Under the pieces are notes generated by a model. The model was not told the origin of the DNA. It worked only from the letters and a program-made list of their open reading frames with translations, and did not search any database. Source: Burkholderiales bacterium (lineage in GTDB: Bacteria > Pseudomonadota > Gammaproteobacteria > Burkholderiales > Burkholderiaceae). Taken from it: a stretch of 9,688 nucleotides of DNA. Below are positions 1,269 through 9,688 of the stretch, piece after piece. Positions within the stretch are counted from its first letter, which is position 1. Each line of letters begins with the position of its first letter. The stretch covers positions 1 to 9,688 of the forward strand of contig CANBQJ010000140.1 in the NCBI GenBank assembly GCA_947371645.1, read 5' to 3'. Made by a program: the position numbers and the translations under genes.

Positions 1269-1279
1269 TCAGCTGATCA
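1266..1279. repeat. 14-bp perfect palindrome holding two convergent stop codons
   Basis: TGATCAGCTGATCA reads the same on both strands. Its first TGA (1266-1268) ends the plus-strand Lrp-type gene, and the complementary TGA at 1271-1269 ends the minus-strand ATP-grasp gene, so the coding regions meet with no spacer. It lacks a natural loop and a T-run, so an intrinsic terminator role is doubtful. Confidence 0.6.
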
Positions 1280-2516
1280 GCAGGATGCGAATCAGGGCCG
1301 GCAGGATCTCCATGGTCTTGAGCAAGGCGGGGTGAGGGTCGCGCCAGTCCAGGTAGGCGTGGCCTTTGGCCTGCAGCAGGCTGCGCAACCAGGCCCAGCG
1401 AGACACGCGTTCCTGAGCTGCCTGGTGAGACCGCGATTGCACATCTCTCGCCAGGTTGACCCAGAGCTTGTGGGTGAGCGTGGGCAGCAGTGGCAGGTCG
1501 CGCAGGGGGTCGCCACACAGCTCGCGCATGGCCACCCAGGGCAGGTTCAGCCCGCAGTCTTCCAGGTGGCCGATCGAGCTGAACGGCCGTGCGTTGAAAT
1601 CGATCAGGTAGAAGCGGCCGGTGCTGCTGTCGCGCAACCACTCGATGCCGAAGATCCCGTGGTAACGGGTGTGCCCCAGCAGCGCCAGCGTGTAAGGGAT
1701 GATGACGTCGTCGGTGGGGCAGCGCGTAGACGGGATCTCACCGTAAGTGGTGCTGCCGAAGTGCGGTGGGTGCTGCCGGATGCGCCGGTGGGTGCAGATG
1801 GTGCGCACGGACCCCTGTGCGTCGGCGTAGCCGTAGGTGTCGTAGATCTCGCCATCGCCACCTTGCAGGATCTGCTGCACCAGCAGGCCATCCCGCGGCC
1901 GGTCGCGCATGTAGTCCAGCAGGCCTTCCCGGCTGTCGAAGACCTCGTTCTTGGCGGCAATGGCCACGCCTTTGCGGCCCCCATAGCTGGGCTTGACGAT
2001 GTAGGGCGGTGGGAATTGCGCCACCCAACCCTGGAAGGCGGAGTCGTCTTCGCAGCGCGTCCAGGGGATGACCGGCACGTCGGCGGCTTCCGCCAGGCCG
2101 TACAGGCGCTCTTTCTGGATGATGCTGCTGATCACTGAAAACGAGGTGTCCCAGAGTCGGCACACCTTGCTCAGCTGATGGCGGTGGCGTGCCAGGAACA
2201 GGGCCTGGTGGTCGCAGGTGGCGATCAGCACGGGTTTGACCGGCATCTTGCGCGCCACATCGCGGATGTGCTGCAGCAGCCGGGCGGCCGTCGGGCTGGC
2301 CTCCAGCAAGGAGACTTCGCTGGGGTAGCGCGACACCTTGAGCGGGTCTGCCGGGTCGAAGGTCACCGCGTGGACGTGCACCCCTTCACGGGCGAGCGCG
2401 CGCACGGTCGCCAGCCCCGTCAATACCTTGCACAGCACGATGGCGTGGGTGGGGCTAGCGGCCTGGCTGAGCGCTGGCAGGGGGTCAATCCCCCGCCAGG
2501 TGATGTTGGCTGACAT
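1269..2516 (-). CDS. ATP-grasp domain ligase of unknown substrate
   Basis: A cytosolic 415-residue protein with an ATP-grasp fold, the family that couples ATP hydrolysis to joining a carboxylate (via acyl-phosphate) to an amine or similar nucleophile. Seen, numbering from ATG 2516: an N-terminal Rossmann-like region starting AIVLCKVLTGLATVRAL (about 25-41); the ATP-binding strand and loop YIVKPSYGGRKGVAI, with Lys175 as the likely nucleotide-binding lysine; LLVQQILQGGDGEIYD (about 211-226); and GIFGIEW with Glu302 followed by YLIDFNARP with Asp316, Asn318 and Arg320, the expected magnesium and phosphate ligands. The layout resembles the predicted ATP-dependent carboligases of COG3919. The C-terminal tail is short and hydrophobic (ALIRILLIS). 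ATG 2516 is chosen over an in-frame TTG at 2531; neither has a strong Shine-Dalgarno. It is divergent from the HlyD/protease/SecA-like operon. A role in modifying that system's substrate is possible but unproven. Confidence 0.8.
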   Translation of the reverse strand: MSANITWRGIDPLPALSQAASPTHAIVLCKVLTGLATVRALAREGVHVHAVTFDPADPLKVSRYPSEVSLLEASPTAARLLQHIRDVARKMPVKPVLIATCDHQALFLARHRHQLSKVCRLWDTSFSVISSIIQKERLYGLAEAADVPVIPWTRCEDDSAFQGWVAQFPPPYIVKPSYGGRKGVAIAAKNEVFDSREGLLDYMRDRPRDGLLVQQILQGGDGEIYDTYGYADAQGSVRTICTHRRIRQHPPHFGSTTYGEIPSTRCPTDDVIIPYTLALLGHTRYHGIFGIEWLRDSSTGRFYLIDFNARPFSSIGHLEDCGLNLPWVAMRELCGDPLRDLPLLPTLTHKLWVNLARDVQSRSHQAAQERVSRWAWLRSLLQAKGHAYLDWRDPHPALLKTMEILPALIRILLIS

Positions 2517-2739
2517 GTCCGACTTCAACAAGATCAGCTTTCTGGGGTCGATGGCCGCCGAACGGACATGGCTGACTGGTCGCCCTGGTTGAGGTTTGTG
2601 AATCTGGCCCGGCAGTTTGCCTTACCCAAGCTTGCACTGCCGTGTCTGCAAACCCGTATATGAGCGGATTGCAAACTGGCATTGTGGTGCTGGAAGCCTT
2701 TCGTGAATCTTTCAATACCGATCCCCCTGACCAAAGGCA

Positions 2740-2821: not shown

Positions 2822-4594
2822 TTGAGTCCTCACCCCATGGGCGAACGCCTTCGCCATGCCTCGCCACCGCCCGCCCAGCCAGACCTGGTGCAGATGCAGC
2901 ACCCCGCGTGGGCCTGGGCTGCGCACCTGCGTGGGGTGGGTGTGGCACTCCGGGGGGTGGCGGTGTTTGCGGTGGACGAGGGCACGCGGCTGGATTTTCC
3001 AGATGCCGAGGCCACCTTGCAGGCGCGGTGGGTGGCGCTGCGCGCGCAGGTGTCTGCTCAGCAGCCGGTGTGCGTGTCCCCGGCAGAGACGCACTCACCG
3101 GAATTGCTGATGGGCCTGGCCCTGGAGGGTGCGGATGGCCAGCCTGCGGTCGTGGGTGTGGCGCTGGTGCCCCCTTGTACCGAACGCACGATGCAGCTGG
3201 TGCGCCTGTCGGCCGCCTGGTTGCAACTGGCTTGGCGGCGCGAAGGGCTGACCCAGCGCGTTCAGGGCGCGCAACTGCTGGACATGCTGGCCCATGTTGC
3301 CTCTCACGATCAGGCCCGCACGGCGGCACAGGATTGGCTCAACCGCAGTGCCGTCCTGGCCCGGCAGGCCTGGCCGGTGCAGGCTGCCCCTGATGTGAGC
3401 CTGAGCCATTTCCAGGTGCGGCGCGGGGTGCCTCGATGGTGGGTGACCTCCGAGACCGCCTGGGCCGAAACGGGTGCACCGGCCTTGGCCGCGGCCACCG
3501 AGCTGGCCATGCAGGCTGCCGCCACTCTGCATGAGGTGGACGAGCCCGCTGGCTGGGCGTTGCCCGTCTTGCACGATGGGCAGGCGGTGAGCGTGCTGGT
3601 GGCCGTGTGGTCGCAACAAGGCCAGGCGCAGGCGGCCAGGCCGGATGGCATGGCGGTGATCTTGCGCGCCAGCCTGGCGCTGGTCGAGCCCTTGCTGCGC
3701 CAGTGGGCGCTGGCCGAGCGTGGTCTGATGGCCCATGCCTGGGCATCCGTGCAGGGCGTGTGGCGCAAAGGCGTGGGCCCAGGGCACCTGGGCTGGAAGG
3801 CCGGCAGTGTGCTGGCCCTGGTGCTGGTGGCGGCGCTGGGCCTGGTGCCGGTGGACGAGCGGGTCACGGCCAGCACCGTGATCGAGGGTCAGACGCGCCA
3901 GCTGGTGACGGCACCCTTCGATGGCTTCGTGGCTCAGGTGCGCGTGAGGCCGGGTGAGCGCGTCCGCGAAGGCCAGTTGCTGGCGGTGCTGGACGACCGA
4001 GACATCCGCCTGGACCAGGCCGCGCAACGCAGCGCCCGAGAGCAAGCCGCAGGCAAGTTGAGGCAGGCCCTGGCCGAGCGCGACACAGGTGCCGCCGCCC
4101 TGGCACAGGCCGAACTGCAGCAGGCTGAAGCCCAGCTCACCCTGGCCGACACCAAGCTGGCGCGAGTGGACTTGCGTGCACCCATGTCTGGCCTGGTCGT
4201 CTCCGGTGACTGGAGCCAGAAGCTGGGCAGCCCGGTCGACAATGGCAAAGAGATGTTCGAGGTGGCCGACACCGATGGCTACCGGGTGGTCCTGCACGTG
4301 CCCGATCACGACATCCCTCGCGTGAAGCTGGGGCAGCCGGGCCAGGTGCGGCTGACGGGCCACCCCAGCAGCAGCTACCCGTTTCGCATCAGCCGGGTGA
4401 CGTCCACGGCCAGTGTCGAAGAAGGCGTCAACGGCTTTCGGGTCGAGGCGCAGTGGGTCGGCCCCTTGCCGCCACTGAGCCCGGGCATGCAGGGCGTGGG
4501 CAAGGTGGACGTGGGGCGCACGGTGCTGCTGGACGTCTGGACCCGCTCTACCCGCGACTGGTTGCAGCTCAAGCTGTGGGCCTGGTTGTGGTGA
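2822..4594 (+). CDS. HlyD-family periplasmic adaptor with cytosolic GAF-like N-terminal region
   Basis: A 590-residue adaptor counted from TTG 2822; ATG 2837 (585 residues) is the alternative. Residues 1 to about 320 are soluble and carry no signal peptide. The part around 230-305 (LAAATELAMQAAATLHEV, WALPVLHDGQAVSVLVAVW) looks like a GAF-type sensory fold, which is a tentative reading. One membrane segment follows at about 323-345 (SVLALVLVAALGLVPV). The periplasmic part then has a first lipoyl-like half (QLVTAPFDGFVAQVRVRPGE, about 359-390), an Ala/Gln/Glu-rich coiled-coil hairpin (about 395-445), a second lipoyl half (VDLRAPMSGLVVSGD) and a beta-barrel region (GYRVVLHVPDHDIPRVKLGQ, about 481-500). 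HlyD-type adaptors normally bridge an inner-membrane pump and an outer-membrane channel. Here no pump is encoded; the next gene, 21 bp away, is a membrane protease, so this probably docks on that protein. First gene of the operon. Confidence 0.85.
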   Translation: MSPHPMGERLRHASPPPAQPDLVQMQHPAWAWAAHLRGVGVALRGVAVFAVDEGTRLDFPDAEATLQARWVALRAQVSAQQPVCVSPAETHSPELLMGLALEGADGQPAVVGVALVPPCTERTMQLVRLSAAWLQLAWRREGLTQRVQGAQLLDMLAHVASHDQARTAAQDWLNRSAVLARQAWPVQAAPDVSLSHFQVRRGVPRWWVTSETAWAETGAPALAAATELAMQAAATLHEVDEPAGWALPVLHDGQAVSVLVAVWSQQGQAQAARPDGMAVILRASLALVEPLLRQWALAERGLMAHAWASVQGVWRKGVGPGHLGWKAGSVLALVLVAALGLVPVDERVTASTVIEGQTRQLVTAPFDGFVAQVRVRPGERVREGQLLAVLDDRDIRLDQAAQRSAREQAAGKLRQALAERDTGAAALAQAELQQAEAQLTLADTKLARVDLRAPMSGLVVSGDWSQKLGSPVDNGKEMFEVADTDGYRVVLHVPDHDIPRVKLGQPGQVRLTGHPSSSYPFRISRVTSTASVEEGVNGFRVEAQWVGPLPPLSPGMQGVGKVDVGRTVLLDVWTRSTRDWLQLKLWAWLW

Positions 4595-4615
4595 GCACGG
4601 CACATCGGGGTGAGC

Positions 4616-6793
4616 ATGTCGCTGCTGTCTGAGCACTGGCATGCCGTGCGACACGCCCGCTTGAGCCTGCGCGATGGCGTGCAGGTCATCCACCGGCGAT
4701 TGCGTGGCCGGCCATGGGTGTTGCTGGTCGACCCGGTGAGCCAGCGTTTTCACCGGCTCACGCCCCAGGTGTGGTCGGTGGTGCGCCTGCTGGATGGCCT
4801 GCGCAGCCTCGATGAGGTCTGGGCGATGGCCTGTGGCCTCGCCGGTCGGGAGGGCGCGGACGGAGGTGAAGGTGGCGAGCACGCTGCGGTCATCACCCAG
4901 ACGGAGCTGGTCCAGCTCATGTCCACCCTGCATGGGCAGGACTTGCTGCGCAACCACACCTCGCCGGATGCCGCCGAGGTGCAGGAACGCCACCAGCAGC
5001 AGCATCGCCAGCGCCGCATGCAAAGCTGGCTCAACCCCATGAGCCTGCGTCTGCCACTGCTGCACCCTGACCCCTGGTTCGAACGCCATGCCACCCTGGC
5101 GCGTGCCCTGTTCACCTGGCCGGTGCTGTGCCTCTGGCTGGTGCTGGTGTTGCCCGCTGCAGGCCTGGCCTGGCAGCACCTGGGCGAGCTCACCGACAAC
5201 CTGTCAGACCGCGTGCTGTCGGCCTCCAACCTGGCGGTGCTGTGGCTGGTCTACCCCCTGGTGAAAGCGGTGCACGAGTGTGCACACGGCATGGCCGTGA
5301 AGGCCTGGGGCGGGCGGGTTCGGGAGATGGGCCTGATGCTCATCCTGTTCACGCCTGTGCCATATGTCGATGCCAGCGCGTCCTACCGCTTTCACGACAA
5401 GTGGGCGCGTGCGGCGGTCGCCGCCGCCGGCATCATGGCCGAGCTGGCGCTGGGTGCCCTGGCCTTGCTGGTGTGGTTGTCTGCGCAAGATGGCGTGGTC
5501 AAGGCGCTGGCTTACAACGTGGTGCTGATCGCGGGCGTGTCGACGCTGCTGATCAACGGCAACCCGCTGATGCGCTACGACGGCTACTTCGTTCTGTGCG
5601 ACCTGCTGGAGGCGCCGAACCTGGCCCAGCGCGCCGGACAGTACCGCCGCTACCTGCTGGACCGCTTCGTCCTGGGCTCACCGGACGCCCAAGCGCCTGT
5701 GGGCGTGGAGGGCGAGCGCAAGCTGCTGCTGGCCTACGGGCTGCTGGCGCCGATCTATCAGCTCACGGTCACCATCGGGGTGATCTGGTTCGTGCTGGGC
5801 CAGTACCTCCTGGCGGGCGCTTTGATGGCCTTGATGGCGGTGTGGAGCAGCCTGGTGGTGCCGGTGTGGCGGGGCTGGCAACACCTGCGCCAGTCGTCCA
5901 CGCTGGCCAGGCGACGTGGCGTCGCGTCCAGAAGGGCCTTGGCCCTGTTGCTGCTGGCCCTGGGCCTCATCGCCCTGGTGCCGGTGCCCTTTCACACGGT
6001 GCACCAGGGCGTGCTGTGGTTGCCCGATGAGGCCATCGTGCGGGCGCAGGTGGATGGCCACGTGCGCAATGCAGAGGTGAGCGACGGCCAGCCCGTGGTG
6101 GCTGGGCAGACCCTGGTGCAACTGGACAACCCCTCGGTGATGGCGGAGTTTCAGTCGGCCACGGCAGCGGTGGCGCAGGCCCAGGCAGCGCTGCGCCAGG
6201 CACAGGTGCAAGCGCCTGCGCAGGTGCAGGGCTTGCAGGAGACGCTGGCATCACGGCAGTTGCGCTGGCAAGAAGCCCACAAGCGCTGGGCCGCCCTGAC
6301 CGTGGTGGCGGGCACGCGGGGGCGCTGGACGCAAGCCGTGGACACGGTCTGGGCAGGGCGCCATGTGAAGCGCGGTGACATCCTGGGCTACACGGTGGAC
6401 GGCCCCGCACGGTTGGTGCGCGTGGCGGTGACCCAGGATGACATGGACCTCATCCAAGGTCGCCTGCAGGGCCTGGCGGTGCGGCCGTGGCAGTCCCAGG
6501 CCAGGCCGGTTGCCGCGACCCTGCGGCGCCTGGTGCCGGGCGGAGACGTGGCGCTGGTGTCGGCGGCTTTGGGCACGCGTGGCGGCGGCGATATTGCGGT
6601 CGACCCGTCGGATGGTGAAGGGCGCCGAAGCCTGGCGCGCGTCTTCGACTTGGAGGTGGCCTTGAGCCAGCCGGTGTTGGTGGACGTGTTTGGTGGCCGT
6701 GCCGACGTGCGCTTTGACCTGGGTCGCACGCCTTTGTTGCTGCAAATGGGGCTGCGCTTGCGCCAGACCTTCCTGTCGCGGCTGGCTTGGTGA
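4616..6793 (+). CDS. PqqD-like / M50 site-2 protease / HlyD-type fusion membrane protein
   Basis: A 725-residue multidomain membrane protein. The N-terminus (about 20-118) resembles PqqD winged-helix proteins (WVLLVDPVSQRFHRLTPQVW), which bind peptides in RiPP pathways. A membrane protease domain follows: helices from about residue 160, the zinc motif HECAH (His220, Glu221, His224), then NPLMRYDGY (316-324) with Asp322 as the third expected zinc ligand. The catalytic set is therefore complete for peptidase family M50. After further helices, the last near 441-459, comes a HlyD-type part: lipoyl half IVRAQVDGHVRNAEVSDGQP, an Ala/Gln-rich coiled coil (about 505-565), the second half (VDTVWAGRHVKRGDILGY) and a barrel-like C-terminus. 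ATG 4616 has GGGG at 4607-4610; an in-frame GTG lies at 4610. Middle gene of the operon. Role inferred: cleaving or gating an exported polypeptide, with its adaptor arm partnering the upstream protein. Confidence 0.88.
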   Translation: MSLLSEHWHAVRHARLSLRDGVQVIHRRLRGRPWVLLVDPVSQRFHRLTPQVWSVVRLLDGLRSLDEVWAMACGLAGREGADGGEGGEHAAVITQTELVQLMSTLHGQDLLRNHTSPDAAEVQERHQQQHRQRRMQSWLNPMSLRLPLLHPDPWFERHATLARALFTWPVLCLWLVLVLPAAGLAWQHLGELTDNLSDRVLSASNLAVLWLVYPLVKAVHECAHGMAVKAWGGRVREMGLMLILFTPVPYVDASASYRFHDKWARAAVAAAGIMAELALGALALLVWLSAQDGVVKALAYNVVLIAGVSTLLINGNPLMRYDGYFVLCDLLEAPNLAQRAGQYRRYLLDRFVLGSPDAQAPVGVEGERKLLLAYGLLAPIYQLTVTIGVIWFVLGQYLLAGALMALMAVWSSLVVPVWRGWQHLRQSSTLARRRGVASRRALALLLLALGLIALVPVPFHTVHQGVLWLPDEAIVRAQVDGHVRNAEVSDGQPVVAGQTLVQLDNPSVMAEFQSATAAVAQAQAALRQAQVQAPAQVQGLQETLASRQLRWQEAHKRWAALTVVAGTRGRWTQAVDTVWAGRHVKRGDILGYTVDGPARLVRVAVTQDDMDLIQGRLQGLAVRPWQSQARPVAATLRRLVPGGDVALVSAALGTRGGGDIAVDPSDGEGRRSLARVFDLEVALSQPVLVDVFGGRADVRFDLGRTPLLLQMGLRLRQTFLSRLAW

Positions 6794-6802
6794 GGGGCCG
6801 GC

Positions 6803-8830
6803 ATGCACGCAGCACTGAAGCCTGATGCCACCCTGGCGCGCAAGCTGGCCGGGCCCACCTGGGTGCGGGCCGACACGCAACGCGACGAGCGTGGCGCCGA
6901 GCTGGGGCCCAAGCTGGACCGTGCCCTGCGCGACCTGCCTGGCTGGCTGCCGCCTCGCGGGGTGTCCAGGCGCCGCATCGACGCGGTGGACGCAGAGATC
7001 GGCCGCGCTGCGCAGGACATGGCCGGCTGCTCGGACGACGAGGTCGTAGCGCGCTTTCGCCGGTCGCTCTCACACGTGAAGTGCCATGCCCAGCCCTGGC
7101 GATGGCAGGTGGATTGGGCCCGCATCTGGGCCTGCGTGGGCCTGGCCAGCCAGCGGCGATTGGGCATGTGGCCACACGGCGTGCAGTTCATGGGGGCGGG
7201 CCTGCTGCTGCGCGGTCACCTGGCGGAGATGCGCACCGGCGAGGGCAAAACCCTGGTGGCGGCCCTGGCGGCCACGGTGATGGCGGGGTCGGGCGCGCGC
7301 GTGCACGTGGTCAGCACCAACGACTACCTCGCCCAGCGCGATGCGCAGGAGATGCAGCCCTTGTTCGCCTTCTTTGGCCTGGGCGCCGCGCACGTGGTGG
7401 ACGGCATGGAAGTGCCCTTGCGGCGGCTGGCCTACCAGCAAGCTGTTTGCTACGTCAGCGGCAAGGAGCTGGTGTTCGACTACCTCAAGGACACGCTGGT
7501 GGGGCATGGGCAGACGCCGTGGCGAGTGGCTTGCGCGCGGCAGGCCTGGGTCGGTGACCTGCCTGGCCAGCTGTCGCCTGAGCCGCCTGTGGTGCCGGCC
7601 CTGCACTTTGCCATCGTCGACGAGGCCGACAGCGTGCTCATCGACGAGGCCAGCACACCCATGATCCTGTCGAGGGAGGTGCCTGGCCAGTATGAAGCCG
7701 AGCTGATGGACTGGGCCGTGTCGGCCGCACGCGGCTTGGTGCCTGGGCGCCACCACATCATGCGTGAAGGACGGCGCCTGGAGGTGCTGCCAGCGGCCTT
7801 GGATGCGGTGCCGGCCATGCCTGCTGGCGTGCGGGCCATGTGGCGATCGCGTGCCTGGCAAGAGACCTTGCTGCGCCAGGCCCTGACCGCCTTGCACCTC
7901 TTCCACCGTGACCAGCACTACCTGGTGTCCGACGAAGGCAAGGTGCAGATCGTGGACGAGTCCACAGGCCGCCTGATGCCCGACCGGTCCTGGGAGCAGG
8001 GCCTGCACCAGATGGTGGAGGCCAAGGAAGGGCTGGCGCAGACCGCAGGGCGCGACACGATGGCGCGGCTGACTTTTCAGCGCTTCTTCCGACGGTACTA
8101 CCTGCTGTCTGGCTTGACGGGGACGGCTTCCGAGGCCTCGCGAGAACTGTGGACGGTCTATCGCCTGGGCGTGCGCAAGCTGCCCCCACATCGCCCGGAC
8201 CAGCGCAGGGTGTTGCCCGCGCAGTGCTGGCCGGATCGCGACCTGAAATGGCAGGCGGTGTGTGACGACGCGCTGCGGGCCGCGCAGGCCGGGCAAGCGG
8301 TGCTGGTGGGCACACGCAGCGTCGAAGCTTCAGAGCAGGTCTGTGCGGTGTTCATGGCGCGCGGGGTGCCGCATGTGGTGCTCAACGCCCGGCAGGATGC
8401 GCAGGAGAGCGAGATCGTGGCGCAAGCCGGGCAGTCGGGACGGATCACGGTGGCCACGAACATGGCGGGCCGCGGCACCGACATCCGTCTGGATGACCGC
8501 GCGCGGGTGGCCGGGGGCCTCCACGTCATCCTCACCGAGTTTCATGACTCGCCGCGCGTGGACCGTCAGCTGTACGGTCGATGCGGGCGCCAGGGTGACC
8601 CGGGTACGTTGCGCGCCATCGTTTGCGCCCAAGACGCCTTGTGGCAGGCGTGGCCAGACTCAAGGCGGCGCTGGATGCTCCAGGGCATGCACATCCAGCT
8701 GGCGGTGCTGGACCTGGGGCGTTGGTGGGCTCAGCAGCAGGCAGAGCGCCGCTTGCGCGCTCAACGCCAGCAGACCTTGAAACAGGACCGCGACCTGCGC
8801 AAGCTCATCGGCTTTGCCGGCAGGGTGTGA
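6803..8830 (+). CDS. Short SecA-like preprotein translocase ATPase
   Basis: A 675-residue SecA paralogue; housekeeping SecA is about 900. SecA is the cytosolic ATPase that drives unfolded proteins through the SecYEG channel. Seen: Walker A MRTGEGKT (143-150, Lys149); VSTNDYLAQRDAQEM; Walker B IVDEADSVLIDEA (271-283, Asp273-Glu274); the SecA-specific VDESTGRLMP and GLHQMVEAKEG (about 384-411); LSGLTGTA; GTRSVEASEQV; ATNMAGRGTDI (551-561); and QLYGRCGRQGD (589-599) with arginines 593 and 596. Both motor domains are thus intact. The preprotein cross-linking region is short and divergent, the helical scaffold and wing are reduced, and there is no C-terminal cysteine-rich zinc motif for SecB or lipid binding. 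The gene starts 9 bp after the protease stop, with GAGGGG (6792-6797) overlapping that stop codon, so translation is probably coupled. Inferred role: dedicated motor for the substrate of this operon rather than general secretion. Confidence 0.93.
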   Translation: MHAALKPDATLARKLAGPTWVRADTQRDERGAELGPKLDRALRDLPGWLPPRGVSRRRIDAVDAEIGRAAQDMAGCSDDEVVARFRRSLSHVKCHAQPWRWQVDWARIWACVGLASQRRLGMWPHGVQFMGAGLLLRGHLAEMRTGEGKTLVAALAATVMAGSGARVHVVSTNDYLAQRDAQEMQPLFAFFGLGAAHVVDGMEVPLRRLAYQQAVCYVSGKELVFDYLKDTLVGHGQTPWRVACARQAWVGDLPGQLSPEPPVVPALHFAIVDEADSVLIDEASTPMILSREVPGQYEAELMDWAVSAARGLVPGRHHIMREGRRLEVLPAALDAVPAMPAGVRAMWRSRAWQETLLRQALTALHLFHRDQHYLVSDEGKVQIVDESTGRLMPDRSWEQGLHQMVEAKEGLAQTAGRDTMARLTFQRFFRRYYLLSGLTGTASEASRELWTVYRLGVRKLPPHRPDQRRVLPAQCWPDRDLKWQAVCDDALRAAQAGQAVLVGTRSVEASEQVCAVFMARGVPHVVLNARQDAQESEIVAQAGQSGRITVATNMAGRGTDIRLDDRARVAGGLHVILTEFHDSPRVDRQLYGRCGRQGDPGTLRAIVCAQDALWQAWPDSRRRWMLQGMHIQLAVLDLGRWWAQQQAERRLRAQRQQTLKQDRDLRKLIGFAGRV

Positions 8831-8841
8831 GCTCCTGTCCT

Positions 8842-8874
8842 GACGCGAGGCCGGGCTTGTCAGGCCCGGGCGTC
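8842..8874. terminator. Candidate bidirectional terminator hairpin
   Basis: GACGC (8842-8846) and GCGTC (8870-8874) flank an inner CCGGGC/GCCCGG stem (8851-8856 and 8864-8869) with a 7-nt loop and an unpaired GAGG on one side. It lies 11 bp after the SecA-like stop and spans the stop codon of the convergent gene. There is no T-run on either strand, so termination strength is uncertain. Confidence 0.4.
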
Positions 8875-9438
8875 ACGGCGGCGGCGCACGCATGCCCAGG
8901 CGATCCCGCCCCCGAGCACGCCCATCCAGATCGCACCCACTTCAGGCACGGTGGCTGTTGCCACGGTCTGGCCGGACGCGACGACATTGAAGTCACCGTC
9001 CAGCACCTCAAAGGGCTGTGCACCGGGTTGACCAGGGCCTGACCAGACGAAGCGCAGCGAGACCTTGGCGGCAAAGCTGCTGTCCAAAGGGCTCAATGCC
9101 GTCAGCAGCAGTTGCCCATCGGTGCCCAGGCCCGCATCGGGCTGGCTGAGCAGTGGGTCCAGCTTGGCGCCCTGGTCATTGCTCAGCAGGGTCAGTGACG
9201 AAAACTGCGCCGGCGCGAACAGGAGGTTCAGCGCATCGAAGGTGGCGAAGGGCCCCTTCACGCTGTAGTCGAGGCGCCAGAGGTCTTGCCCGGCCACTGC
9301 ATCGGCCAGGTTGGTCGCCGTGTACTGAACGTTGGCGGCAGAGGCCAAGGTGCCCGTCACCAGGGCGACCGATGCACACAGCAGCCGCAAGGCGTTGCGG
9401 CAGTGGGTCAGGCCAGAACCGTTCAAGCGGGAGTCCAT
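8860..9438 (-). CDS. Exported protein with PEP-CTERM-like sorting tail
   Basis: A 192-residue protein with both ends typical of exosortase substrates. The N-terminus has a signal peptide: arginine at NALR, hydrophobic LLCASVALVTGTLASA, and probable cleavage after residue 34 (ASA before ANVQ). The C-terminus has VPEVG (164-168), a glycine-containing hydrophobic helix (AIWMGVLGGGIAWACV) and the basic end RRRRDARA. In PEP-CTERM proteins this tripartite tail directs recognition and processing by exosortase at the inner membrane; the usual second proline of VPEP is valine here. The middle is predicted beta-rich (TNLADAVAGQDLWRLDYSV), with no recognised enzymatic motif. ATG 9438 is preferred because an AGGA lies about 7 nt upstream and the signal peptide has normal length. 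ATG 9474, overlapping the stop of the upstream propeller gene, would add 12 residues. No exosortase gene is present in the window. Confidence 0.75.
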   Translation of the reverse strand: MDSRLNGSGLTHCRNALRLLCASVALVTGTLASAANVQYTATNLADAVAGQDLWRLDYSVKGPFATFDALNLLFAPAQFSSLTLLSNDQGAKLDPLLSQPDAGLGTDGQLLLTALSPLDSSFAAKVSLRFVWSGPGQPGAQPFEVLDGDFNVVASGQTVATATVPEVGAIWMGVLGGGIAWACVRRRRDARA

Positions 9439-9470
9439 GTGGGATCCTGTTCTCGTGCGTGGTGTTTGCA

Positions 9471-9688
9471 TCATGCACCCACATTGACTTTGTAGACCTC
9501 GCCTTGCGTGGAGGCGACCCAGAGCTTGCCGTCCGGGGCGAAGCTCAGGCCGGAGATTTCGTTTTGGTTGACGCCTTGAGCGGAGACATCGAGGGTGCGC
9601 AGTTGGGTGAGGGTGCCATCGGCGGCGATCTGGAACTCCACGAGTGAGGAGCCGCCATTGGCCGCGCCCAGCCAGAGGTGGCCGGTGG
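9471..9688 (-). CDS. C-terminal end of a beta-propeller (NHL/SMP-30-like) protein
   Basis: Only the last 71 residues and the stop are in the window; the gene continues past the right edge. Two blade-like repeats are visible, each with a Gly-x-Leu-Trp-Val/Leu pattern: TGHLWLGAANGGSSLVEFQI and SGLSFAPDGKLWVASTQGEV, ending YKVNVGA. The D-G-K-L-W-V-A core is typical of NHL, SMP-30 and two-component-regulator propeller blades, which bind ligands or proteins and are often periplasmic or extracellular. The full domain order cannot be seen. The stop codon (TGA, 9473-9471) overlaps ATG 9474 of the next frame, and the PEP-CTERM-like gene's preferred start is 32 bp further on, so the two are probably co-transcribed. 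Confidence 0.65.
   Translation of the reverse strand, partial: TGHLWLGAANGGSSLVEFQIAADGTLTQLRTLDVSAQGVNQNEISGLSFAPDGKLWVASTQGEVYKVNVGA

Follow-up and report, generated by a model that had tools for sequence, protein, structure and literature searches.

A candidate exporter of giant LEPR-XLL proteins: a short SecA, an M50-HlyD fusion and an HlyD adaptor in a Burkholderiales operon

The subject of this report is a three-gene operon in a 9,688-nucleotide stretch of DNA from a Burkholderiales bacterium (GenBank assembly GCA_947371645.1, contig CANBQJ010000140.1), referred to at its full length as the window. The operon encodes an HlyD-type adaptor (gene A), a fusion of PqqD-like, M50 and HlyD parts (gene B) and a short SecA (gene C). 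It is probably an exporter dedicated to very large repeat proteins of the LEPR-XLL type, which carry no evident Sec signal peptide, acting through a series of proposed steps. That the module exports, with the LEPR giants as its cargo, is very likely. The parts are conserved, the ATPase and zinc motifs are intact, the SecA has lost its C-terminal part, the cassette encodes no ABC ATPase and LEPR giants are associated with it. The system itself is not new. The operon is most likely a divergent copy of the secondary SecA_DEAD/type-I-like module described by Kamneva, Poudel and Ward in 2015, and passages of that paper already propose SecA as the ATPase and the M50 protein as the pore (PMC4452313). 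Relative to those passages, what is added here is the likely cargo (the LEPR giants), a SecA-less sister class and a tally of the parts.

The three genes and their products

The features of the operon, with lengths in amino acids (aa) and nucleotide-binding domains abbreviated as NBD, are as follows.

2822..4594, + strand: gene A, HlyD-type adaptor, 590 aa (Pfam HlyD_3, HlyD_D23)
4616..6793, + strand: gene B, PqqD-like/M50/HlyD fusion (Peptidase_M50, HlyD_3)
4664..4969, + strand: PqqD-like region at the N-terminus of gene B, with limits approximated from the PqqD calls of relatives and the daptide model
5273..5287, + strand: M50 HExxH zinc site HECAH, residues 222-226 (H222, E223 and H226 invariant in 27 aligned relatives)
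5555..5581, + strand: second M50 motif NGNPLMRYD, residues 316-324 (N316, N318, P319, L320 and D324 invariant in the 27 relatives)
5978..6742, + strand: HlyD/MexA-like adaptor half of gene B, residues 457-711
6803..8830, + strand: gene C, short SecA, 675 aa, NBD1-PPXD-NBD2 with a stub of the scaffold helix
7235..7252, + strand: Walker A motif TGEGKT of gene C (GEGK invariant in 28 aligned members)
7619..7630, + strand: DEAD motif of gene C (invariant in 28 aligned members)

All three genes lie on the + strand, with intergenic gaps of 21 bp (A-B) and 9 bp (B-C), and each start is preceded by a Shine-Dalgarno-like stretch: GGGAG before 2822, GGGGTGAG before 4616 and GAGGGG before 6803. The open frames thus confirm the co-directional arrangement reported in an earlier note on this DNA. 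Gene A begins with a TTG at 2822, in a frame that is open back to 2642 and offers an ATG alternative at 2837; gene B begins with an ATG at 4616, with a GTG at 4610 in the same frame. A promoter and terminator scan gave no signal exceeding that of shuffled sequence. The family assignments of the same note (HlyD, M50/HlyD fusion and SecA-like ATPase) agree with the Pfam matches, its PqqD-like domain being recovered only through relatives.

Gene A matches HlyD_3 (8e-20) and HlyD_D23 (7e-16). Its order is an N-terminal part that is GAF-like by kinship, a hydrophobic stretch and the periplasmic adaptor; GAF is called in 24 of 26 aligned relatives and not in the window's own copy.

Gene B matches Peptidase_M50 (2.1e-6) and HlyD_3 (1.4e-5). 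The sequence criteria of a site-2 protease, an HExxH site and a second zinc-ligand motif, are present and invariant across the 27 aligned relatives, in 12 of which PqqD is called; the window's own gene B receives no PqqD call. Its structure model has a mean pLDDT of 82.8, and the matches displayed from the Foldseek and VIA-align searches cover the adaptor half only and leave the M50 half uninformed. The nearest NCBIfam model is the daptide HExxH protease (NF041824; 4.5e-49), an intramembrane metalloprotease with a similar PqqD-like plus M50 arrangement, and the match begins at residue 19. This likeness, together with the PqqD calls, would suit an operon for the maturation of a product akin to ribosomally synthesized and post-translationally modified peptides (RiPPs), in which the PqqD-like domain binds a leader and the M50 domain cuts it. 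The score of 167.6 bits is below the cut-off of 300, however, the 379-position model has no HlyD half, and clustering of frames of at least 70 aa gave no conserved precursor family. The recurring partner is a giant protein, a different cargo from that of the daptide enzyme. A RiPP-like operon is therefore disfavoured and scarcely credible.

Gene C matches SecA_DEAD (5e-75), P-loop_SecA and SecA_PP_bind, with no SecA_SW match. The same pattern holds across the 28 aligned short SecAs, the window's included: the first three domains occur in 28/28 and SecA_SW in 0/28, and the NBD2 motifs are invariant alongside those of NBD1. The protein ends after the second nucleotide-binding domain, the wing, the two-helix finger and most of the scaffold being gone, and the short SecA profile aligns to B. 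subtilis SecA only as far as residue 608. The model of gene C (mean pLDDT 78.6) resembles the SecA of SecY complexes (TMq 0.76, 6itc); against the truncated E. coli SecA-N68 (5k9t) the value is 0.56. In the tree, which did not include the sequences of PMC4452313, short and canonical SecAs separate with support of 100/100 and the window's protein falls within the short group, on a long branch whose exact place is unsure. A full-length SecA over the family cut-off is also present in all 20 system genomes tested, which are those of relatives, and several carry more than one short copy. Separately, a SecA-like frame of more than 1,200 aa was seen in locus L086 (G085:C7, 6193-9897, minus strand), near apparent lpxC, ftsZ and ftsA; it was matched piecewise, with pieces overlapping in the query, and may be a canonical SecA that has an insertion or was misassembled.

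The short SecA might still work at SecYEG, alone or with the canonical SecA, with the adaptors and TolC acting afterwards in a two-step route. The PPXD is kept in all 28 short SecAs. SecA-N68, a laboratory truncation rather than a natural protein, ends at a similar place, and according to passages of PMC5603524 it has a high affinity for SecYEG and a constitutive ATPase activity. In passages of PMC7503281, SecY is the partner of Gram-positive SecA2 proteins. This two-step route is nevertheless unlikely: the parts named above are missing from the short SecA, SecA-N68 cannot catalyse translocation (PMC5603524, same passages) and a crude measure finds nothing like the hydrophobic stretch of a signal peptide in the giants. 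That measure was a mean hydropathy of 2.0 over 15 residues, reached by the N-termini of 0/18 giant rows (16 genes), as compared with 28/55 adaptors, which were scanned over a longer stretch, and 7/11 TolC proteins.

Conserved partners and the missing ABC ATPase

When genome contigs were scanned once with the short SecA of the window, 67 loci were obtained, mostly in Proteobacteria, with some in Nitrospirota and the former Deltaproteobacteria and one in a metagenome-assembled genome labelled Bacteroidia. Wherever the contig leaves room, an M50 gene lies upstream of the short SecA (61/61) and so does an HlyD gene (51/51). A third, short adaptor follows downstream in 57 of the 60 loci with room. 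The exceptions by protein match are L005, L050 and L058, and in L050 tblastn does detect the adaptor. As the gene order is kept in these loci, a chance arrangement is excluded. The conserved linkage of the three families, which the earlier note had proposed as a check, is thereby found in several phyla.

The coupling was also counted in 100 Burkholderiales genomes drawn evenly across the order, where M50 genes of the main class are those resembling gene B, as distinct from the sister class described below. All 15 short SecAs scoring over 640 bits, in 11 genomes, have a main-class M50 gene no more than about 205 bp away, a count from which a 203-aa fragment and a frame of canonical length (635 bits) were excluded. 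Conversely, 15 of 16 main-class M50 genes have an adjoining short SecA, the exception being G036:C2.

Further partners were recorded by protein match in the 67 loci: DUF3467 in 17, TolC in 16, DUF4347 in 14, HDOD in 13 and SapC in 7, all lower bounds as the flanks are cut. The small DUF3467 gene stands just 5′ of the HlyD gene, for example in L006, L008 and L023 and also in L088 and L090; its product is perhaps a further part of the system or a chaperone. One or two HDOD genes stand directly 5′ of the HlyD gene in the 13 loci (such as L018, L033, L049, L059 and L065), which are of gammaproteobacterial type, and the HDOD proteins are possible regulators. DUF4347, found in many giants, was rejected as a marker of the system, since it is not confined to it; passages of PMC8262886, for instance, place it in a proposed type VI effector.

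No ABC family match was found among the window proteins scanned against Pfam and NCBIfam. A search with real ABC sequences from the loci, covering 118 loci and not the rest of the genomes, matched an ABC ATPase in 7 of them (8 places), at 4.7 to 11 kb and never within 4.7 kb of the M50 gene. Two of these matches, in the sister-class loci L071 and L077, are on the M50 strand, with other genes between, some on the opposite strand. These results bear on ordinary type I secretion, in which an ABC transporter encoded elsewhere would drive export and the cassette would be accessory. HlyD adaptors and TolC are indeed type I parts. The rarity and distance of ABC ATPases in the loci tell against it, however, as do the M50-HlyD fusion and the SecA, both foreign to known type I systems, and this explanation is very improbable. 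An adjacent ABC and TolC set had been named in the earlier note as one finding that would undo its reading; the cassettes yielded no ABC gene, while the often adjacent TolC and the third adaptor had both been missed.

Giant LEPR-XLL proteins beside the cassettes

Very long frames end just 5′ of, or begin just 3′ of, many cassettes. Where the N-terminus is visible it carries a common motif, of the type LEELExRxLFSGG or LESLEPRLLLSA, and the NCBIfam LEPR-XLL model (NF012209) was over cut-off in four of five giant N-termini tested. LEPR frames reach 14,768 aa, measured stop to stop. The very long proteins with a shared N-terminal motif that had been suggested as substrates therefore exist: LEPR giants both adjoin the cassettes and co-occur with them.

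The co-occurrence was tallied from over-cut-off matches only, as the model has just 24 positions and gave chance matches in 72 of the 100 Burkholderiales genomes at E up to 10. In that sample 10 of the 11 genomes with the system have an over-cut-off motif, versus 6 of the 89 without, the chance-like matches of G114 (23-aa frame) and G022 (214 aa) being retained. For any M50-HlyD protein, with seed genomes excluded, the Burkholderiales figures are 13/20 with and 2/79 without. Those of the Nitrospirota are 4/5 with and 0/55 without, at a limit of E 0.02 above which over-cut-off matches would escape the count, here and in the Alphaproteobacteria (against E 10 for the 100 Burkholderiales genomes and 0.1 for 19 other system genomes). 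Pooling the three groups gives 19/29 with an M50-HlyD protein versus 4/205 without (p 3.7e-17, a value that ignores kinship). The 19 other system genomes had the motif over cut-off in 17, in G014 only through a chance-like frame of 69 aa.

Proximity was scored for 28 cassettes, a count that omits the split M50 copy of G015 and derives frame ends from motif position and frame length. A LEPR frame lies within 5.1 kb of 18 of them, and three more (in G013, G014 and G020; L033, L040 and L065) have a weaker motif variant next door. RefSeq annotation of a Pontibrevibacter plasmid lists a LEPR-XLL gene of 31.8 kb, DUF3467, an adaptor, a PqqD-family protein, a DEAD helicase and an adaptor. Plasmids of Mesorhizobium (an Ig-like gene of 31.6 kb) and Alisedimentitalea (a calcium-binding-protein gene of 24.4 kb) are likewise annotated with a large gene followed by the cassette. 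One genome, G049, holds at least five LEPR frames over cut-off (14056, 10519, 9914, 8007 and 9929 aa). The giants of L001-L003, L009, L028, L030 and L052 show a W-x-I pattern near the C-terminal end (NDWEIRL, NRWRIKP, QDWHIRL). W-x-[IVW] occurs in the last 40 residues of 12/26 giant rows versus a random internal mean of 1.34; it was not used as evidence because the rows include relatives, repeats of one gene and frames that are not giants.

Of the orthologous cassettes found, the nearest is L106 of Roseateles caseinilyticus P7 (identity of 61% for SecA, 59% for M50 and 49% for HlyD), where the order is LEPR giant (12,080-aa frame), TolC, HlyD, M50, SecA and adaptor. In the window itself, where the earlier note had seen no such substrate, a frame at the 3′ edge resembles the C-terminal end of a giant. 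It and the frame beside it are listed here.

9471..9686, − strand: C-terminal end, 71 aa, of a probable giant, open at the window end and convergent with the operon
8860..9474, − strand: small frame, signal-like at its start and with a hydrophobic stretch followed by arginines at its C-terminal end, judged by eye, overlapping the 9471-9686 frame by 4 nt

The 9471-9686 frame shows 48% identity across 69 aa (E 7e-19) with the end of the L010 giant frame (Pseudorhodoferax Leaf267), which sits upstream of a related cassette; among the loci compared it matched only L010 and L101, both from one genome. Judged by this alignment, it is likely the end of a giant protein and a candidate substrate. The call stays short of certain because what matches is a repeated module. 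In L101 (G006:C27) a LEPR-bearing frame of 826 aa overlaps a long frame of 5,948 aa that lies on the same strand but in another phase; a frameshift or an assembly error therefore splits the giant gene there. The 8860-9474 frame has no Pfam or NCBIfam match; its tail, by eye, is PEP-CTERM-like but without the PEP triplet.

These two minus-strand frames form one flank of the operon. The other holds a cyclodeaminase-like frame, an Lrp/AsnC-like regulator and a frame of 420 aa (1269-2531, minus strand) with a weak match to the large subunit of carbamoyl-phosphate synthase (E 3e-4), perhaps an ATP-grasp enzyme.

A proposed export route and its known relatives

Export may begin in the cytoplasm, where the LEPR segment would be recognised; the simplest candidate for this task is gene B's PqqD-like domain. 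PqqD-related domains bind leader peptides. The short SecA would then use ATP hydrolysis to feed the unfolded chain into an inner-membrane assembly of gene B, which would replace the membrane domain of an ABC transporter, the chain passing through or beside the M50 domain. The M50 site may act at this stage by cleaving or freeing the giant's N-terminus. Finally, the HlyD parts of genes A and B, the third adaptor and TolC would carry the chain to the surface. Such one-step secretion, with a PqqD-like reader, a SecA deprived of its SecY-contacting C-terminal part, an M50 protein in place of the ABC transporter, an HlyD/TolC conduit and a parallel branch without SecA, is a tentative scheme, held at a little under an even chance. 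SecA as the energy source is slightly favoured, and the M50 domain as the actual pore is possible but doubtful.

The parallel branch consists of M50-HlyD proteins of lower similarity (about 225 to 355 bits) that occur without SecA. In ten such loci (L068-L077) a long frame lies beside the M50 gene; an outer-membrane factor and an adaptor are matched in 8/10 and an HlyD protein in 9/10, GAF being called in one of three sister-class HlyD proteins scanned. The giant of L068 shows the motif variant LEPRFMFDGAA. Nine sister-class M50 proteins examined keep the HExxH; the form of the second M50 motif that was searched for was seen in none of the nine.

Several points weigh against the export reading or parts of it. 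SecA is matched in 0/10 sister-class loci, which is the strongest point against SecA as an essential motor, and L081 (G036:C2) has a main-class giant, adaptor, M50 and HlyD without an adjoining SecA gene; a SecA motor is therefore not universal and may not be needed. (The genome of L081 has two other cassettes with SecA.) The inability of SecA-N68 to catalyse translocation counts here also. The window lacks both the third adaptor and TolC at their expected place, and the N-terminus of the giant lies beyond the edge, with its LEPR status out of view. No over-cut-off LEPR frame is near 10 of the 28 cassettes. The Alphaproteobacteria, with LEPR in 2/4 versus 2/71 without M50-HlyD (p 0.013; the chance-like matches of G235 and G215, 390 and 268 aa with no M50 partner, being retained), are weak alone, and the kinship left out of the p values detracts from the association. 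The interpretation of the earlier note, a dedicated exporter with a SecA-type motor, is partly borne out, namely for the linkage and the giants beside the cassettes; the roles it gave to the SecA, the M50 domain and the adaptors stay at the level of proposals.

SecA may be an optional component, or else the energy source differs between the two classes. The short SecA could alternatively serve as an unfoldase, chaperone or quality-control factor for the giants, the M50/HlyD core exporting through another energy source. Such a role would fit the sister class, which has the core parts and giants without SecA, and the cassette of L081. The tight coupling in the Burkholderiales sample, 15/15 in one direction and 15/16 in the other, speaks against it and makes it distinctly improbable.

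Among known systems the closest is the 2015 module itself. Both it and the window have a SecA_DEAD protein without SecA_SW beside M50-HlyD and HlyD proteins, and passages of PMC4452313 also describe a GAF-HlyD protein, sometimes an OEP and no ABC transporter. The role of the module is there called completely unknown, partner genes can lie elsewhere in the genome, and proteins over 1,000 aa are drawn interrupted (legend of Fig. 3); its main text gave no match for “giant” or “LEPR”. No paper tying the module to LEPR giants was found in literature searches, in which later citing work was not covered. As to the cargo, passages of PMC10868602 mention a LEPR-XLL protein of about 8,000 aa in Vibrio sp. 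VB16, likewise very large and with the N-terminal motif of NF012209, and no exporter is named for such proteins in the passages of the two papers found.

The type I secretion of giant adhesins of the SiiE and LapA type is alike in its HlyD-type adaptors, TolC and giant repeat cargo, with the M50 protein and short SecA here standing in the place of the ABC transporter. LapA is a giant adhesin cargo of type I secretion. The type I giant adhesins carry a C-terminal signal, whereas the LEPR motif is at the N-terminus. SiiE is a giant type I cargo in passages of PMC8277102. The accessory SecA2 proteins of C. difficile and M. tuberculosis (6sxh, 4uaq) are also paralogues beside a canonical SecA, with NBD1, PPXD and NBD2. 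They keep the scaffold and two-helix finger (passages of PMC7503281), unlike the short SecA, which lacks the finger and most of the scaffold and is not a SecA2 by that criterion.

The LEPR-XLL giants offer a concrete candidate cargo, and with it a role, for a module that was printed in 2015 without one, and the association points to a possible way out of the cell for proteins that are thousands of residues long and have no evident signal peptide. It also makes a testable motor of a SecA paralogue that is not expected to cooperate with SecY as usual, and for this motor the SecA-less sister class is a natural control. If the proposal is true, the LEPR-XLL motif would gain a function as an export signal.

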